Shown here: positions 1,771 through 15,247 of the stretch, piece after piece
How the letters are laid out: each line of letters opens with the position of its first letter
Numbering within the stretch: position 1 is the stretch's first letter
DNA from: an uncultured bacterium
GTDB taxonomy: Bacteria; Cyanobacteriota; Vampirovibrionia; Gastranaerophilales; Gastranaerophilaceae
Reading direction: 5' to 3'
Assembly: GCA_948433295.1 (NCBI GenBank)
Contig: CAOJDT010000013.1
Span: 1-33,868, forward strand
Length of the DNA: 33,868 nt
Notes under the pieces: model-generated
Seen by the model: only the letters and a program-made list of their open reading frames with translations
What the model was told of the DNA's origin: nothing
Databases searched by the model: none
Translations under genes and position numbers: made by a program

Positions 1771-3357
1771 ATGGATAAATTTTACATCACTACTGCAATT
1801 GATTACGTAAACGGCGCACCGCACATCGGTCACGCTTACGAAAAAATTATAACTGACGTTATCGCAAGACATTACTCGCAAAGAACCGACGACATGTACT
1901 TTTTGACAGGTACCGACGAACACGGTATTAAAATTCAAAAAACTGCCGCGGCAAAAGGCATTACGCCAAAAGAACTCTGCGACGAAAACGCTCAAAAATT
2001 TAAAGATGCCTGGAATGCTTTAGATATTAACTACAACCAATTCATAAGAACAACCGACGATTATCACGAAAAAGCCGTTCAGAAAATCTTCAAAAAACTC
2101 GTGGAAAAAGGTGATATCTATAAACATTCTTATGAAGGCTTGTACTGTCAAGGATGCGAATGCTTCCTCAATCCTAAAGATTTGACCGAAGACGGACTCT
2201 GCCCTGACCACCTTAAAAAACCAGAAGTTGTTAAAGAAGAAAATTACTTCTTCAAACTTACAAAATACAAAGACGCTATTATTAAACACATTAAAGATAA
2301 TCCTGATTTCATAGTTCCGGCCTTCCGCGCAAACGAAGTATTAAATCAGTTGGAAGATATTCAGGACATCTCTGTTTCACGTGCAAAATCAAACGTGCAA
2401 TGGGGAATTGATGTTCTCGACGACCCTGAACAATCTATTTACGTATGGATTGACGCGCTTTCAAACTATATTACGGCACTCGGCTACGACACTGAAACAA
2501 ATTCTGAAAAGTATAACAAATATTGGCCTGCTGATGTTCACGTAATCGGAAAAGATATCTTGAAATTCCACAGTATCTACTGGCCTGCGTTTTTGATGGC
2601 GCTTGACTTACCGCTTCCTAAACACATTTTTGCGCACGGATGGATTACTATCGACGAAACAAAAATGTCAAAATCTCTCGGTAACGTAATTTCACCAACT
2701 TCTGTTATCGAAAACTTTGAATTAAAAGAACCAGACGCATTCAGATATTACATGGCAACCTCTGCACCTTGCGGACGCGACGGAAACTATTCGGATGACG
2801 ATTTTAAAGAAAAAGTTAACGCACACCTCGCTAACAGCATGGGTAACCTCTTAAACAGAACTCTTTCTATGCTTGTCAAATACTTTGACGGCGAAATAAA
2901 AGAAGGTTCGAAAGTCGCAAGTCATCCTGAACTTGTTTCAGGATCTCTTGAATTACTTAAAAAAGCCCTCGGCACGGTTAAAATCGTAGAAAACCATTTC
3001 AACCACTTCGAAATCGCAGAAGCCGCACAGGAAATTATGAATATTGTTGATTTAACAAATAAATTCGTAACCGACAACGCACCTTGGACTTTAGCCAAAG
3101 AAGAAAAAATGGCCGAATGCGCTCAAGTATTAACAACAGTACTTGAAGTAATGTGCATAGTTGCGGCGTTAATATATCCTTACTGCCCGAATATCGCAAA
3201 ATCCATGGCTAAACAATTATCGTTCGATTTGAGCGTAAAATTAGACGATTTAACAGCCGATAATATCAAAAATGGTAAACTTATATCAAAAGAAGAAATA
3301 ACCCCCGTATTTTTGCGTGTGGACTCGGAATTGGCTGATAAATCTTCAAAGAAATAA
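1771..3357 (+). CDS. metG: Methionine--tRNA ligase
   Basis: Charges tRNA-Met with methionine in the cytoplasm. This is a class I synthetase: the HIGH motif is residues 18-21 and KMSKS is residues 298-302 (ETKMSKSLGNV). The connective-peptide knuckle has C126, C129, C144 and H147, the single-knuckle arrangement of Aquifex/Thermus-type MetRS. At 528 residues it ends after the anticodon-binding helical domain and lacks the C-terminal EMAP-like tRNA-binding domain of longer forms. An AGAGGAAAA Shine-Dalgarno precedes the ATG. Residues 384-392 read SHPELVSGS and are encoded by a palindromic repeat that occurs again after the YeiH gene; it lies at the start of the anticodon-binding domain, probably in a surface loop. 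An intrinsic terminator follows directly. Confidence 0.97.
   Translation: MDKFYITTAIDYVNGAPHIGHAYEKIITDVIARHYSQRTDDMYFLTGTDEHGIKIQKTAAAKGITPKELCDENAQKFKDAWNALDINYNQFIRTTDDYHEKAVQKIFKKLVEKGDIYKHSYEGLYCQGCECFLNPKDLTEDGLCPDHLKKPEVVKEENYFFKLTKYKDAIIKHIKDNPDFIVPAFRANEVLNQLEDIQDISVSRAKSNVQWGIDVLDDPEQSIYVWIDALSNYITALGYDTETNSEKYNKYWPADVHVIGKDILKFHSIYWPAFLMALDLPLPKHIFAHGWITIDETKMSKSLGNVISPTSVIENFELKEPDAFRYYMATSAPCGRDGNYSDDDFKEKVNAHLANSMGNLLNRTLSMLVKYFDGEIKEGSKVASHPELVSGSLELLKKALGTVKIVENHFNHFEIAEAAQEIMNIVDLTNKFVTDNAPWTLAKEEKMAECAQVLTTVLEVMCIVAALIYPYCPNIAKSMAKQLSFDLSVKLDDLTADNIKNGKLISKEEITPVFLRVDSELADKSSKK
2924..2944. repeat. Dispersed palindromic repeat inside metG
   Basis: Perfect 8 bp arms ATCCTGAA (2924-2931) and TTCAGGAT (2937-2944) around the 5-base loop CTTGT. 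The same arms with loop CTTTT recur at 6282-6302. The copy is in frame and adds HPELVSG-type residues to MetRS. Confidence 0.75.
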
Positions 3358-3399: not shown

Positions 3400-3427
3400 T
3401 TGAAAAAATTAAAATATAAGTTATAAT
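3400..3427 (+). promoter_or_regulatory. Promoter of antisense RNA T0
   Basis: TTGAAA (3400-3405), a 16 bp spacer, and TATAAT (3422-3427). The same -35, spacer length and -10 occur at the three tandem loci near 13 kb. Confidence 0.8.
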
Positions 3428-3433
3428 ATAAAT

Positions 3434-3530
3434 AAGGGAAAGGTGATGCGCGAACATCACCTCTACAGTTCCCTTAGAAGAATAATAGAGCAAATTCTAT
3501 TAAAAGCCTTGTTACCAGCAAGGCTTTTTT
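3434..3530 (+). ncRNA. Candidate antitoxin antisense RNA, locus T0
   Basis: Predicted transcript of about 97 nt from the promoter at 3400-3427. It opens with an outer stem GGGAA (3436-3440) / TTCCC (3469-3473) enclosing the hairpin AGGTGATG (3441-3448) / CATCACCT (3455-3462), hexaloop CGCGAA. It ends in a strong intrinsic terminator, AAGCCTTG (3504-3511) / CAAGGCTT (3519-3526) plus a T tail. That terminator lies inside the minus-strand peptide gene at 3474-3548, so the RNA is complementary to the 3' part of the toxin message. Both ends are predictions. Confidence 0.65.
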
Positions 3531-3548
3531 AATTATCTGCCTTTTCAT
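3474..3548 (-). CDS. Candidate type I toxin peptide, locus T0 (24 aa)
   Basis: A 24-codon frame beginning MKRQIIKKALLV and ending in LLIEFALLFF: a basic N-terminus and a hydrophobic C-terminus, as expected of a membrane-active peptide. A near-perfect Shine-Dalgarno, AAAGGAGGCG (3554-3563), sits just before the ATG. The leader contains CCACCTCCTGA, able to pair with this Shine-Dalgarno or its flank. It is the most divergent of the four copies in peptide sequence, but the architecture is shared: facing promoter, 5' hairpin in the antisense RNA, terminator inside the frame, and stop codon abutting the antisense outer stem. Toxicity is inferred from layout only. Confidence 0.55.
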   Translation of the reverse strand: MKRQIIKKALLVTRLLIEFALLFF

Positions 3549-3616
3549 CTTTCGCCTCCTTTCCTGACAATTTCTACAGTAATTGTTGTTCAGGAGGTGG
3601 CACGGAAACCGTCCCT

Positions 3617-5275: not shown

Positions 5276-6268
5276 ATGAAAAAGAATGTTTTAGGAATAA
5301 TTTTTTGTGCAGTATTTGCGCTCGCTGCTTATATTACATGTAAATGCGATTTTTGTACTTCGATTAATTTGAACTCGCTAACGTTCGCAATAATTATCGG
5401 CATGGTTATCGGTAATGTATTTAACAAATTTATTCCCGATAAATTTCGTGACGGAATAACTTTTTCTTCAAAAAGAATTCTACGATTTGCAATAGTTTTG
5501 TATGGTTTTAGAATAACATTTCAACAGATTTTTGCCGTTGGTTTGGACGGCTTGTTTGCCGATATATTAATGCTTACTACAACGTATTTGTTCGGATACT
5601 ATCTCGGGACAAGGGTTTTCAAACTTGATAAAGACCTTTGTATGCTTACTGCAATCGGTTCTTCTATATGTGGAGCCGCGGCGGTTCTCGGAACGGACGC
5701 TGTATTAAAAGCTAAGTCTCACAAAGTTTCTCTTGCTGTAGCAACGGTTGTTTTGTTCGGTACAATTTCTATGTTTTTGTATCCGTTTATTGCTCAGTTA
5801 GGCTTTTTAAGCCCTGAATATTTCGGTGTATATATAGGTTCTACCGTTCACGAAGTAGCGCAGGTTGTAGCGGCAGGAAGCGCAGTTTCTCCCGTTACAA
5901 TGGATACTGCCGTGATAGTAAAATTAACCCGCGTAATGATGCTTGTACCTTACTTATTTTTACTCGGAATGTATCTTGCAAAAAAATCGGGTACAAAGCG
6001 TGAAAAAATTCCGATGCCATGGTTTGCAATACTTTTTGTGGCAGTTTGCGGATTGAATTCGCTGAACATAGTTCCGGAATTTATTCGTTCGTTTTTGATA
6101 GAATTCGATGTATTTTTATTGACAATGGCAATGTTTGCGCTCGGAGTAGAAACCAATTTTGAGAAAATAAAGGGACTTGGCTGGAAGCCGATATTGCTTG
6201 CGGGAATAATGTTTATCTGGCTCGTATTTGGCGGAATGGCAGTAAACAAAGTACTTTATGTATTATGA
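5276..6268 (+). CDS. YeiH/UPF0324 family putative transporter
   Basis: Polytopic membrane protein of 330 residues, matching the UPF0324 (YeiH) family, often annotated as putative sulfate exporter; the true substrate is uncertain. About ten hydrophobic segments are visible. Family-like stretches are RFAIVLYGFRITFQQI, IGSSICGAAAVLGTDAV, the YIGSTVHEVAQVVAAGSAV loop, and VIVKLTRVMMLVPYLF. The ATG follows AAAAGG by a long spacer, and a small hairpin (TTCTTAC 5242-5248 / GTAAGAA 5254-5260) lies in the leader just before that purine stretch. It is transcribed away from oriC. A palindromic repeat follows its stop. Confidence 0.88.
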   Translation: MKKNVLGIIFCAVFALAAYITCKCDFCTSINLNSLTFAIIIGMVIGNVFNKFIPDKFRDGITFSSKRILRFAIVLYGFRITFQQIFAVGLDGLFADILMLTTTYLFGYYLGTRVFKLDKDLCMLTAIGSSICGAAAVLGTDAVLKAKSHKVSLAVATVVLFGTISMFLYPFIAQLGFLSPEYFGVYIGSTVHEVAQVVAAGSAVSPVTMDTAVIVKLTRVMMLVPYLFLLGMYLAKKSGTKREKIPMPWFAILFVAVCGLNSLNIVPEFIRSFLIEFDVFLLTMAMFALGVETNFEKIKGLGWKPILLAGIMFIWLVFGGMAVNKVLYVL

Positions 6269-6281
6269 AATTTTTCCTGTT

Positions 6282-6302
6282 ATCCTGAACTTTTTTCAGG
6301 AT
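6282..6302. repeat. Second copy of the dispersed palindromic repeat
   Basis: ATCCTGAA (6282-6289), loop CTTTT, TTCAGGAT (6295-6302), 13 bases after the YeiH-family stop. The arms are identical to those of the copy inside metG. It could act as a 3' mRNA hairpin, but no T run follows on the plus strand. A second perfect 12 bp palindrome, TGGCATATGCCA, lies at 6311-6322. Confidence 0.7.
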
Positions 6303-6472
6303 GACGAATTTGGCATATGCCATATTTAATGTTAATTCTCTAGACAAAACGGAATTATTATTATAAAATTGTTTTGCAGGGTAAGCACCATGCTTCCGCT
6401 TCGCACACGTAAATTCTTGAAGAAATTGGCGAAGAAAGGAGGTATTTTATTATGTCTAATGATATGTAAAAA

Positions 6473-11080: not shown

Positions 11081-11962
11081 ATGGACGTTCAGAATCTTTC
11101 GGAATACCTCGAATATTTAGAAGTCGAAAAGGGGCTTTCTTTTAATACAATAGAAGCCTATAGGCGTGATTTGGGCAGCTTTTTGGATTTTTGCGAATCA
11201 CGCGGCGTTGAAACTTTTGATAATATTAAACGGGCGGAAGTAAATTCTTTTGTGTTGAAACTTCATGACGAAAAACTTACAACAACTACGGTTGTGAGAA
11301 AAATAGCTTCGCTTCGCGGATTTTTTAAGTGGCTTTGTGCAAACGATTACTGTAAATTTGATCCGACGCTTACGCTTGAACAGCCAAAACTTCCTAAGCG
11401 GCTTCCGAAAGTTATGACGGTTCAGGAAATCGAAGAAATTCTTAATCAAGACCTTGACGAACTGCATTCGGTTATTGTTGAACTTCTTTACGGCTGCGGG
11501 CTCCGTGTTTCGGAACTCGCTAACCTTAATGTTAATAATATAGATATTAAATCAAAATATCTTCAATGCTTCGGAAAAGGTTCTAAAGAAAGAATCGTTC
11601 CGCTCGGGAAAAAGGCTGTTCTGGCGTTGAAAAAATATTTGCCGAAAAGAGATTTTAATATCCGAAAATTTAAAATTGAAACAGAAAATCTTCTTGTGGA
11701 TTCTAACGGAAGAATTTTAACGCGGCAGGATATTTATAAATTTATTCGCTCTCAGGGTGAAAAAATTCACAAACACATTTCTCCGCACACATTAAGGCAC
11801 AGTTTTGCGACACATTTGCTTGAAAACGGGGCGGATTTGAGGATTGTACAAGAACTTCTCGGACACAGCGATGTTTCTACAACACAGCTTTACACTCACG
11901 TAAGTAAAAAACGCTTGAAAGAAGTTTACTTTGCAATTAACGGAAAAGGAGGTGCGGCTTAA
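11081..11962 (+). CDS. xerD: Tyrosine recombinase, XerC/XerD family (first copy)
   Basis: Site-specific recombinase of 293 residues, the length of housekeeping Xer proteins that resolve chromosome dimers at dif. The N-terminal SAM-like core-binding domain is followed by the catalytic domain with R142 (GCGLRVSELA), K166/K169 (GKGSKER), H236 and R239 (SPHTLRHSF), H262 (LLGHSDVSTTQ) and nucleophile Y271 (LYTHVS). A second Xer gene, in the opposite direction, lies at 14333-15247, so the pair probably forms the XerC/XerD heterodimer; which is C and which is D is a guess. The stop overlaps the next ATG by one base. No integrase-type N-terminal arm-binding domain is present. Confidence 0.85.
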   Translation: MDVQNLSEYLEYLEVEKGLSFNTIEAYRRDLGSFLDFCESRGVETFDNIKRAEVNSFVLKLHDEKLTTTTVVRKIASLRGFFKWLCANDYCKFDPTLTLEQPKLPKRLPKVMTVQEIEEILNQDLDELHSVIVELLYGCGLRVSELANLNVNNIDIKSKYLQCFGKGSKERIVPLGKKAVLALKKYLPKRDFNIRKFKIETENLLVDSNGRILTRQDIYKFIRSQGEKIHKHISPHTLRHSFATHLLENGADLRIVQELLGHSDVSTTQLYTHVSKKRLKEVYFAINGKGGAA

Positions 11963-12783: not shown

Positions 12784-12966
12784 ATGGACGACAAAAAAGA
12801 GAGAAATTTAACGCTGATTGAAGCTTCTCAAGAGGTAGAACTTGAGACTCAAAAAGTTGTAAAATCTCATCAAACCAATCCGATAATGAAAAAACTGGCG
12901 CAATTTCATCTTGAAAAAGCGTCTAAATTAAAGGTAAAAGATTTGTTTAAAAATCCGACCCCTTGA
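12784..12966 (+). CDS. Small charged protein of unknown function (60 aa)
   Basis: Not recognised. The protein is rich in Lys and Glu, predicted helical and soluble, without Cys or membrane segments (MDDKKERNLTLIEASQEVE ... LFKNPTP). TATAAT (12772-12777) ends six bases before the ATG, and AAAGAGG lies 12-18 bases upstream, so it could be leaderless or use a distant Shine-Dalgarno. Its TGA stop lies inside the -35 hexamer of antisense RNA T1, so the gene runs directly into the toxin-antitoxin array. Confidence 0.6.
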   Translation: MDDKKERNLTLIEASQEVELETQKVVKSHQTNPIMKKLAQFHLEKASKLKVKDLFKNPTP

Positions 12967-12990
12967 AATTTATAAATAATAGGTTATAAT
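12963..12990 (+). promoter_or_regulatory. Promoter of antisense RNA T1
   Basis: TTGAAA (12963-12968), 16 bp, TATAAT (12985-12990). It overlaps the stop codon of the 60-residue protein gene. Confidence 0.8.
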
Positions 12991-12996
12991 AAAATA

Positions 12997-13085
12997 AAGG
13001 GCGAGAGGATTGCCGTCCTCTCATTAAATGCCCGTTTAGTGTTTGAGAACTAGTATTATCAGTAAGATTAGTACTAGTTCTTCTT
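12997..13085 (+). ncRNA. Candidate antitoxin antisense RNA T1
   Basis: Predicted RNA of about 90 nt. The 5' hairpin has arms GAGAGGA (13003-13009) and TCCTCTC (13016-13022) with loop TTGCCG, enclosed by GGGC (12999-13002) / GCCC (13030-13033). The 3' stem is GAACTAGTA (13047-13055) / TACTAGTTC (13072-13080), followed by TTCTT; its T run is weaker than in T0 and T2. The 3' half is complementary to the peptide gene at 13036-13104. The 5' hairpin is exactly inverted relative to T2. Confidence 0.65.
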
Positions 13086-13104
13086 CTGTTATACAGAAGT
13101 TCAC
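13036..13104 (-). CDS. Candidate type I toxin peptide T1 (22 aa)
   Basis: A 22-codon GTG-start frame: MNFCITEEE followed by the hydrophobic core LVLILLIILVL and a KH tail. The Shine-Dalgarno AAAGGGGGTGG precedes the GTG. The leader folds into a hairpin directly before it: TTTCCAACG pairs with CGTTTGGAAA. Peptides T1, T2 and T3 share a short polar N-terminus, an E or K, an 11-12 residue Leu/Ile core and a final K, while the DNA differs. That argues for real translation. Predicted to insert in the membrane; toxicity is inferred, not shown. Confidence 0.65.
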   Translation of the reverse strand: MNFCITEEELVLILLIILVLKH

Positions 13105-13185
13105 TTTACCACCCCCTTTCCAAACGATTAATCCGGATTTGCAGTCTGTACCGTTGGAAAAAGTGCATGGCATGCCCTCGTAAAT

Positions 13186-13214
13186 ATTGTATCAATTAAC
13201 GTTTATAAAGTCAA
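13186..13214 (-). promoter_or_regulatory. Promoter of toxin T1 message
   Basis: On the minus strand, TTGACT (13209-13214), 17 bp, TACAAT (13186-13191). The start is near 13179, giving a leader of about 75 nt that opens with GAGGGCATGCC. Confidence 0.8.
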
Positions 13215-13249
13215 ATGTAACGGAAATATTATTAAATTAAAATAAAGGG

Positions 13250-13277
13250 TTGAAATTTATAGAAAATAGGTTATAAT
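13250..13277 (+). promoter_or_regulatory. Promoter of antisense RNA T2
   Basis: TTGAAA (13250-13255), 16 bp, TATAAT (13272-13277). Confidence 0.8.
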
Positions 13278-13283
13278 GTAGAT

Positions 13284-13377
13284 AAAGGGCGAGAGGACGG
13301 CAATCCTCTCATTAAACGCCCCTATTTGATGGAAATAAGCACTAAGATTATTAGCAATAATATGATTAGTGCTTTTT
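13284..13377 (+). ncRNA. Candidate antitoxin antisense RNA T2
   Basis: About 94 nt. The 5' hairpin is GAGAGGA (13291-13297) / TCCTCTC (13304-13310) with loop CGGCAA, inside the outer stem GGGCG (13287-13291) / CGCCC (13317-13321). The terminator is AGCACTAA (13338-13345) / TTAGTGCT (13366-13373) plus TTTTT. The terminator stem is the reverse complement of the toxin's hydrophobic-core codons. Confidence 0.7.
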
Positions 13378-13396
13378 CGCTAGCTGCGAAAACCAT
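13322..13396 (-). CDS. Candidate type I toxin peptide T2 (24 aa)
   Basis: ATG-start frame of 24 codons: MVFAASEKA, core LIILLLIILVLI, tail SIK. The Shine-Dalgarno AAAGGGGGTGATAAAG lies immediately upstream. A leader hairpin, TCGCGGA / TCCGCGA (13442-13448 and 13412-13418 on the plus strand), ends exactly where the Shine-Dalgarno begins. The start resembles holin-like type I toxins of the TxpA type only loosely, and the peptide is far shorter. It is better compared in size with Ibs peptides, but I cannot assign a family. Confidence 0.68.
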   Translation of the reverse strand: MVFAASEKALIILLLIILVLISIK

Positions 13397-13476
13397 CTTT
13401 ATCACCCCCTTTCGCGGACTGTCATTCTGCAGTAATGTTGTTCCGCGAGGAAATGAACGGGCATGCCCTCAAAAAC

Positions 13477-13505
13477 ATTGTATCAACTAACGTTTATAAA
13501 GTCAA
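13477..13505 (-). promoter_or_regulatory. Promoter of toxin T2 message
   Basis: On the minus strand, TTGACT (13500-13505), 17 bp, TACAAT (13477-13482). The predicted leader of about 74 nt opens with the palindrome GGGCATGCCC (13459-13468). Confidence 0.82.
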
Positions 13506-13540
13506 ATGTAACGGAAATATTATTAAATTAAAATGGAGGG

Positions 13541-13568
13541 TTGAAATTTGTAAAAAATGAGTTATAAT
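13541..13568 (+). promoter_or_regulatory. Promoter of antisense RNA T3
   Basis: TTGAAA (13541-13546), 16 bp, TATAAT (13563-13568). Confidence 0.8.
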
Positions 13569-13574
13569 GTAGAA

Positions 13575-13664
13575 AAGGGCGAGGCTGCGTCAACAGCCTC
13601 AATATATGCCCTCTGTGGTTATTTAAGGGCTAATATTATCAATAAGATAATTATTAGCTCTTTT
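13575..13664 (+). ncRNA. Candidate antitoxin antisense RNA T3
   Basis: About 90 nt. The 5' hairpin is GAGGCTG (13581-13587) / CAGCCTC (13594-13600) with loop CGTCAA, inside GGGC (13577-13580) / GCCC (13608-13611). The 3' stem (13627-13640 with 13646-13660, loop AATAA) is followed by TTTT. Relative to T2 both sides of the 5' stem have changed together and pairing is preserved. Confidence 0.68.
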
Positions 13665-13678
13665 GTATTTATAACCAT
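13619..13678 (-). CDS. Candidate type I toxin peptide T3 (19 aa)
   Basis: The shortest copy: MVINTKELIIILLIILALK. A consensus Shine-Dalgarno, GAGGAGGTGATAAA, precedes the ATG. The pattern is as in T1 and T2: a short polar start, E, a Leu/Ile-only core, and a terminal K. The leader carries the palindrome GGGCATGCCC (13746-13755) at its 5' end and a weaker stem before the Shine-Dalgarno. It is the copy nearest the XRE regulator gene, which lies upstream on the same strand. Confidence 0.65.
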   Translation of the reverse strand: MVINTKELIIILLIILALK

Positions 13679-13764
13679 TTTATCACCTCCTCTCCAGCGT
13701 CAATCGCGATTTTCAGTCTGTAGCGCAGAGTGAAGGTTTATGACAGGGCATGCCCTCTGATGTG

Positions 13765-13793
13765 ATTATATCAGATAAGATTTTTTAAGTCAA
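13765..13793 (-). promoter_or_regulatory. Promoter of toxin T3 message
   Basis: On the minus strand, TTGACT (13788-13793), 17 bp, TATAAT (13765-13770). It begins 18 bp after the stop of the XRE gene, so the toxin has its own promoter. Confidence 0.85.
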
Positions 13794-13811
13794 ATAAAAA
13801 CGGATTTATTA

Positions 13812-14033
13812 TTAATCAAAATTCAAAAGGTCACACAGCTTCATGTCAAGACCATTAGCTATTCTTGCCATAGTTTCTATTGATGGAAAGTTTTCCATTC
13901 TTTCAATTGTTCCAACAGTTAATAAACTGATATCGGATTTTGCGGCAAGTTTTTCTTGTGACAAATGCCGTTTGGCTCTTTCCATTCTTAATTTTGATGC
14001 TAAATTTTCACGTAAATTTAATAAATTGTCCAT
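13812..14033 (-). CDS. XRE-family helix-turn-helix regulator
   Basis: A 73-residue DNA-binding protein consisting of one HTH_3 domain: LRENLASKLRMERAKRHLSQ, then EKLAAKSDISLLTVGTIER (turn and recognition helix) and SIETMARIANGLDMKLCDLL. The open frame reaches a TTG at 14057, but the ATG at 14033 lies six bases after TATAAT (14040-14045), so I take that start, which implies a leaderless message. It sits immediately upstream of the toxin array on the same strand. It might regulate the toxin or antisense promoters, or itself; only position supports this. Confidence 0.8.
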   Translation of the reverse strand: MDNLLNLRENLASKLRMERAKRHLSQEKLAAKSDISLLTVGTIERMENFPSIETMARIANGLDMKLCDLLNFD

Positions 14034-14129: not shown

Positions 14130-14336
14130 ATGCGTATAAGTTTAGACGAAATTGGTGAGGAAGTCGCTAAGACAAAGGATTTGGTGAGAGTTTTGTGTGA
14201 TACGGTTTACCTTTGCGAAAAAGAACGAAAACCGCTTCATCATATCAAAACCCTTTGTCCTCTGGTTTTTGAACAGTGTGCAAAATCATTAAATATTTTA
14301 GATGATTATATGCTGCAGGAAAACGGAAAAGTTTAA
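14130..14336 (+). CDS. Small protein of unknown function (68 aa)
   Basis: Not recognised. A soluble, mostly helical protein with four Cys (VLCDTVYLCEKE, TLCPLVFEQC), possibly metal-binding, although the spacing fits no motif I know. A good Shine-Dalgarno (AGGAGAG) precedes the ATG. Its TAA stop overlaps the stop of the convergent xer gene at 14333-14336 (TTAA), leaving no room for a terminator between them. It is similar in size and helical character to the 26019-26234 protein, but not clearly homologous. Confidence 0.7.
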   Translation: MRISLDEIGEEVAKTKDLVRVLCDTVYLCEKERKPLHHIKTLCPLVFEQCAKSLNILDDYMLQENGKV

Positions 14337-15247
14337 GCGCGCGGGTGTGTTTCGTTGTAAACCTCTTTGAGGTGTTGGCTGGAAACGTGTGTGTAGATTT
14401 GGGTGTTTGAAATACTTGCGTGTCCGAGAAGTTCCTGTACAACCCTCAAATCCGCTCCGTTTTCTATTAAGTGTGTGGCGAAACTGTGGCGAAAAACGTG
14501 TGGTGTAACGTGTTTTGGAAGTTGGATTTTTTCGACAATGTCATTAATTACATTCCTTACGGTTCTTGTTTGCAGACGGAATCCTGTGTTATTGATGAAT
14601 ACGGGCGAGTCTTCGCGATTTTCGACTCTGAAACCTTTTGCCACGAGCGGGCGGGCGGTGTCAATATAGCGTTGAAGGTAAGTTTTTGCGCGGTCTGTGA
14701 CAAGTATAATTCTTTCTTTCGAGCCTTTTCCGAAAACTCTGATTTCGTTATTTTCGAGGTTTAAGTCTTCAAAATTCAAGCCGCTGAGTTCGGAAACACG
14801 CATTCCCGTTGCCCAGAGGAGTTCAAGAATCGCTTTGTTTCTGTAACCTGCGGGAGTGTCGATTTTTATGTTATTAAGAATTTGTTCGACTTCATAAGGG
14901 GTAAGAAATTTAGGCAATTGTCTCGGGCGTTTTGGGGAATTGAGATTCATCGCGGGGTTGGAGTCGACTTTTTTTTCGCGGAAAAGATATTTGTAAAAAG
15001 TTCTTAATGATGCAATTTTTCTTGCGAGTGTTGTTTTTTTATAATTGAATTTTTGTATAAAATGCAGATATTCACGAACTTTAGAGAAGTTTACATTCTC
15101 CAGCGGGGTTTCACCGAGCCATAACAAAAAGTCTAAAACATCCGAATAGTATGCTTTTGCAGTATGTTGTGAAAAGTTTTTTTCCACCAGAATATAACTT
15201 CTGAAATCCTCTAAATCGTTTTTTGAACTTGAATTTAAACCCATCAT
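14333..15247 (-). CDS. xerC: Tyrosine recombinase, XerC/XerD family (second copy)
   Basis: A 304-residue tyrosine recombinase with all catalytic residues: R150 (ATGMRVSELS), K174 (GKGSKER), H250 and R253 (TPHVFRHSF), H276 (LLGHASISNTQ) and Y285 (IYTHVS). It is collinear with the 11081-11962 protein, with the strongest similarity in the C-terminal domain. Two complete housekeeping-type Xer proteins 2.4 kb apart suggest the XerC/XerD pair. The start is ATGATG; either Met may be used. The toxin array lies between the two genes. Confidence 0.87.
   Translation of the reverse strand: MMGLNSSSKNDLEDFRSYILVEKNFSQHTAKAYYSDVLDFLLWLGETPLENVNFSKVREYLHFIQKFNYKKTTLARKIASLRTFYKYLFREKKVDSNPAMNLNSPKRPRQLPKFLTPYEVEQILNNIKIDTPAGYRNKAILELLWATGMRVSELSGLNFEDLNLENNEIRVFGKGSKERIILVTDRAKTYLQRYIDTARPLVAKGFRVENREDSPVFINNTGFRLQTRTVRNVINDIVEKIQLPKHVTPHVFRHSFATHLIENGADLRVVQELLGHASISNTQIYTHVSSQHLKEVYNETHPRA

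Follow-up and report, generated by a model that had tools for sequence, protein, structure and literature searches.

Repetitive extragenic palindromic sequences (REPs) of the CGTC superfamily, which includes the Rickettsia conorii elements RPE-6 and RPE-4, are described in the accessible parts of Di Nocera et al. 2013 (PMC3733652) as having an unpaired CGTC, TGTC or CCTC tag at one end, a stem of 8-9 bp with A-T pairs almost always at its first two positions, a loop of 4-5 nt, and a 3-nt unpaired tail that is mostly CCA. Head-to-head dimers predominate, no associated transposase gene is reported, and the repeats are listed for Proteobacteria, Chlorobi, Bacteroidetes, Spirochaetes and Thermotogae in those same parts. 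The Rickettsia palindromic elements RPE-4, RPE-6 and RPE-7 are inserts of 68-192 bp, common to most orthologues, which according to the accessible parts of PMC3767692 lie in frame in housekeeping genes, tRNA synthetases among them, at solvent-exposed places, with different elements at one locus across species. A third comparable system, the REPINs and their RAYT transposases, consists of inverted REP doublets with a spacer (PMC3116915, accessible parts). Searches of the open-licence literature found no title on REPs or palindromic repeats in Gastranaerophilales or Melainabacteria among 20 listed of the 187 hits, no report of an intragenic palindromic REP in methionyl-tRNA synthetase (MetRS) and no mention of the peptide HPELVSGS, and a search on in-frame repetitive extragenic palindromic sequences in aminoacyl-tRNA synthetases gave nothing on the subject by title.

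The window is the whole stretch of 33,868 nucleotides that was analysed, from an uncultured member of the Gastranaerophilales whose genome, designated G000, comprises 1.96 Mb in 131 contigs and is 99.4% complete. The features concerned are as follows.

1771..3357, + strand: metG, methionyl-tRNA synthetase of 528 aa, host of the insert (ORF; NCBIfam metG)
2921..2947, + strand: REP unit in metG, with GTC tag, ATCCTGAA/CTTGT/TTCAGGAT hairpin and CTC tail, encoding part of SHPELVSGS
6279..6305, - strand: second REP unit of the window, with CGTC tag, a tail of AAC, not CTC, and one base different in the loop

The metG hairpin at window positions 2924-2944 has perfect 8-bp arms, ATCCTGAA (2924-2931) and TTCAGGAT (2937-2944), and a 5-nt loop, CTTGT (2932-2936), and lies within the codons for MetRS residues 384-392 (SHPELVSGS). 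The RNA hairpin of the unit has a predicted energy of -8.9 kcal/mol. The coordinates, codons and perfect arms verify the preliminary description of an in-frame palindrome within metG, and the matching copy that it placed after the ORF at 5276-6268 (called YeiH there) has equally perfect arms at 6282-6302, directly 3' of the stop codon, in the orientation opposite to the metG copy and with the loop CTTTT. With up to three mismatches allowed, these were the only two hairpin copies in the window; shuffled sequences averaged 0.17 copies and one of 100 shuffles reached two.

Other observations made in the window concern four probably related modules (3400-3600, 12960-13230, 13250-13520 and 13540-13820), each with a TTGAAA...TATAAT promoter and the start of a structured RNA (e.g. 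GGGCGAGAGGAC..TCCTCTC) that face a tiny hydrophobic minus-strand ORF (e.g. MKRQIIKKALLVTRLLIEFALLFF), two tandem units being 88-90% alike; these may resemble type I toxin-antitoxin modules. Two tyrosine-recombinase-like ORFs, presumably of the XerC/XerD type, at 11081-11962 (+) and 14333-15247 (-) have in common an inverted stretch of 167 nt that is 72% alike.

In the whole of G000 the core CTGAACNNNNTTCAG occurred 63 times, against once for the reversed control pattern, and ATCCTGAACNNNNTTCAGGAT at up to two mismatches gave 86 strand-matches against none for the control, most sites matching on both strands. The genome-wide search for an arm-N5-arm pattern that had been proposed in the preliminary description thus recovered about 60 members of one family. 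The count of 61 used below is that of 64 core matches less three (C49:11185, C11:20646 and C27:1704, the last in a Capsule_synth ORF), which had neither tag nor tail and were judged to be chance. Alignment of the copies with their flanks gave a full unit of 27 nt running from GTC to CTC, with tag, 8-bp stem, 5-nt loop (most commonly CTTGT), second arm and CTC tail, and the stretches of G000 examined contained about 51 complete units with a tag. The metG unit is the commonest unit of the genome at 27 of 27 bases. Most units have the tag TGTC; the metG copy has AGTC and the copy at 6279-6305 has CGTC. Variants of the stem come as pairs (ATCC/GGAT, ATTC/GAAT, ATGC/GCAT, ACCC/GGGT and GTCC/GGAC), and since the changes occur in matched pairs it is the hairpin that is conserved and not its letters; the first two stem positions are A-T pairs in the ATCC, ATTC and ATGC units but not in the ACCC and GTCC units. 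In thirteen inverted doublets, which mostly combine one ATGC unit with one ACCC unit, the CTC tails face each other across a spacer of 8 or 9 nt; one further doublet is tag-facing.

The metG element fits a CGTC-type REP, a better family name than RPE, RPE-4 and RPE-6 being the Rickettsia members of that superfamily. Set against the CGTC REPs of PMC3733652, as far as its accessible parts describe them, the G000 family is alike in its unpaired CGTC or TGTC tag, 8-bp stem, 5-nt loop and 3-nt tail, in its inverted doublets, often of unlike units, in its sites downstream of genes and sometimes within them, and in having no dedicated transposase (no PF01797 match in G000). It differs in its tail, which is CTC and not CCA, in the C or G at the second stem position of the ACCC variant, and in its host, since Gastranaerophilales lie outside the phyla listed there. 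With RPE-4/6/7, on the accessible parts of PMC3767692, it shares the in-frame position in housekeeping genes including tRNA synthetases, the solvent-exposed places, the ATGAC motif (the reverse complement of GTCAT) and the presence of different elements at one locus across species; unlike those longer inserts common to most orthologues, the G000 inserts measure 27 nt as single units and 62 nt as a doublet, and close relatives have clean empty sites. The likeness to Rickettsia palindromic elements drawn in the preliminary description therefore stands for in-frame, translated-type inserts of the RPE-4/6/7 sort, although not for the family name. The accessible parts of PMC3116915 likewise provide a parallel for the inverted doublets with spacer, of which G000 has 13, one within valS, but no Y1 transposase was found in G000 or in G025 and G031, the two tested relatives with the most REPs.

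Exact ATCCTGAACNNNNTTCAGGAT was present in 49 of 117 genomes of the family, at 0 to 143 copies per genome, and the counts within the genus sample were 22 in G000, 19 in G004 and none in G003, G007 and G010. In a collection of named genomes at least 118 stretches contained the exact 27-mer, and its carriers among the matches listed included Bacteroidetes, Alphaproteobacteria (Sphingomonads and Rickettsiales), Treponema, Patescibacteria, Neomarinimicrobiota and Gastranaerophilales. Against the 80 loci listed, stretches of G000 had their longest blastn matches in Gastranaerophilales (75-82% over about 1.3 kb), in keeping with a host of that order. Past mobility is implied by the number of copies, their patchy distribution and the clean empty sites, in agreement with the earlier claim that the element is or was mobile. 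A Y1 transposase (PF01797) was considered as the mover and rejected: no match was found in G000 at 99.4% completeness, and among 14 genomes tested the four with a match did not include G025 and G031, the richest in the metG-type REP, so that its presence in relatives did not track copy number.

Six of the 61 units of G000 lie within well-identified genes, and eight more lie in prepilin-like ORFs upstream of an FTLAEVLITLG motif, where translation is doubtful. Random placement, using the 83% coding share of the window, would put about 51 of the 61 copies in genes (P of 1e-35 for six and 2e-24 for 14). The suggestion in the preliminary description that the element favours in-frame sites is not supported by these counts; with depletion from genes this strong, REPs appear either to avoid genes or to be purged from them, and the in-frame copies look like survivors, for which the loss of harmful insertions is a sufficient explanation. 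In the prepilin-like ORFs (L002, L057 and L082-L085) the REPs stand just upstream of the motif, several copies have near-identical flanks, and some are at contig ends.

Besides metG, an ORF scan with NCBIfam identified in-frame REPs in argS, valS, leuS, ilvD and the B12-dependent ribonucleotide reductase gene of G000. In valS two inverted units, forming a 62-nt doublet, add 19 residues that are missing in all 15 relatives of a ValRS comparison made without G014. The argS loop carries the REP in three species (G000, G005 and G006), and in G001, G004, G009, G010 and G011 it holds an unrelated palindromic repeat of the CCTTGCGGGAGAGG family (L161-L164, L167), which reaches 103 matches per genome, the maximum being in G006; the loop is short in G002, G003, G007, G012 and G013, and other short loops occur in G008, G014, G015 and G016. 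The entry of unrelated repeat families into one argS loop favours a hotspot there. The ilvD site holds the REP in G000. Relatives have other palindromic repeats there (L187, L189, L190), with a different hairpin insert in G004, G006 and G011, and G005 carries an insert of a third kind. The leuS case is weaker, with one arm mismatch and a unit standing in place of a loop of similar length, and the unit of the reductase gene, compared without G001 and G008, occupies a variable linker close to the C-terminus. In G005 a recurrent variant, GCAGGC-TCTGAACTTGTTTCAGGGTCTA, whose 5' part differs (L252, L253, L255, L258, L278, L279), is perhaps another repeat class.

The metG locus was followed in an alignment of 67 MetRS genes, drawn from 70 loci with G022, G030 and G095 left out, as part of the 107 genomes of the family with a MetRS match, and including all 13 genomes of the genus sampled. 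The intact palindrome is found in G000 only, in one of the 67; at the insert site 33 genes have a gap of exactly nine residues, eight a shorter gap, and 25 other residues. Because these 25 relatives have residues and no gap, the locus is not a plain case of a filled against an empty site. Twelve of the 25, from six genera, have ELVxGS in register and in other codons (e.g. KNPELVKGS, KNPELVEGS and NYELVSGS), which on comparison of the sequences is probably a decayed REP; among random 9-mers, five matches to a REP-encoded peptide turned up at a frequency of 6e-4 and six at about 7e-6. The Aquifex MetRS structure (2csx) is without the segment. In an AlphaFold2 model built with 27 sequences (mean pLDDT 85.8, pTM 0.85), helices 342-372 and 392-411 of MetRS are separated by a coil, residues 376-391, with pLDDT of about 91-94 (block means 94 and 91), and the earlier account of a dispersed palindromic repeat, translated by its reading frame in a loop of an essential enzyme and comparable to RPE-4/6/7, was upheld, the loop being as predicted by the model. 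Profile comparison of MetRS with LeuRS for equivalent insert loops aligned the N-terminal parts alone, and that with ValRS ended ahead of the ValRS insert.

The metG insert is very probably a 27-nt CGTC-type REP, a member of the genome-spread family, that entered a MetRS loop with the frame kept. The family would have spread through G000 as single units and inverted doublets, by a mechanism that presumably acts on the hairpin or the doublet, and one unit would have come to rest in the C-terminal part of MetRS, in the loop that separates two long helices. Since the unit is 27 nt, or nine codons, and the HPELVSGS frame contains no stop, the gene stayed open; the loop would have tolerated nine extra residues, which are presumably translated in the cell, and out-of-frame or harmful insertions would have been lost. 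The insertion may be recent, or a decayed insert of greater age may have been re-seeded at that metG site. According to the preliminary description, the palindrome would be incidental if relatives had the same residues in unrelated codons, and the 12 MetRS with ELVxGS in other codons do lend something to the idea that ELVxGS is a native loop whose G000 codons form a hairpin by chance; this is nevertheless extremely improbable, and a chance palindrome is ruled out by the window shuffles, by the core count of 63 against one and by the match of the metG unit at 27 of 27 bases to a G000 family with about 60 members, the unit being found also in argS, in ilvD and at many intergenic positions. A refinement of the REP insertion reading, to which we give somewhat less than an even chance, is that one entry into metG in an ancestor of several genera was domesticated, ELVxGS becoming an ordinary loop, and that the DNA of G000 alone was kept at, or converted back to, the family consensus. 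The in-register ELVxGS of six genera, with its rarity among random draws, speaks for this age, as do the argS REP codons, identical at nine of nine between G000 and G005 and at eight of nine between G000 and G006, against about 55% codon sharing at conserved residues elsewhere. On the MetRS tree, however, the insert-bearing genomes fall in two groups with insert-free genera between them and some low supports, so that a single gain followed by losses and a double gain are equally possible, and for so ancient an insert to have pristine DNA, a putative gene conversion would be needed. Re-seeding or homogenisation is the favoured reading of the pristine G000 metG DNA beside its decayed neighbours, and the metG case has more the look of an ancient insertion that persisted or was renewed.

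Four of the six well-identified intragenic insertions of G000 are in class I aminoacyl-tRNA synthetase genes (metG, argS, valS and leuS), with a chance of 3e-6 by a simple binomial that assumes about 2% of coding sequence, our own estimate, for a class picked after the data were seen, and the accessible parts of PMC3767692 give Rickettsia IleRS and PheRS-beta as having RPE-7. Three species whose tRNA synthetases harbour REPs are mentioned in the accessible parts of PMC3733652 (Di Nocera et al. 2013). It is nonetheless very improbable that such genes attract or retain REPs because the insert or its mRNA hairpin tunes the enzyme: in G005, where 43 of 45 REP matches were surveyed, argS is the sole synthetase among four REP-bearing genes (the others being hydF, coaBC and a tRNA nucleotidyltransferase-like gene), none of seven spanning ORFs with a Pfam match among 82 copies from other genomes is a synthetase, and the valS insert is absent from every relative compared. 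The counts from G005 and the other genomes led us to reject a general synthetase preference, of which there was no sign outside G000. A doubtful but less remote proposal is that a few essential-enzyme loops, in this genus notably those of aminoacyl-tRNA synthetases, are recurrent landing sites, where unrelated palindromic families enter the same loop, old inserts decay to peptide (ELVxGS) and active copies re-seed or homogenise the DNA.

The kind of insertion is itself known; its occurrence in Gastranaerophilales, judged from sequence, appears to be new, no earlier report having been found. Translated REP insertion, best known from Rickettsia, would thus also occur in this order, in several essential enzymes of one genome and with empty sites in close relatives. 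The finding bears on whether the RPE-4/6/7 inserts represent a single common old insertion or hotspots hit repeatedly, and if the loops are indeed recurrent landing sites, REP insertion would be a repeated source of new protein segments outside Rickettsia.
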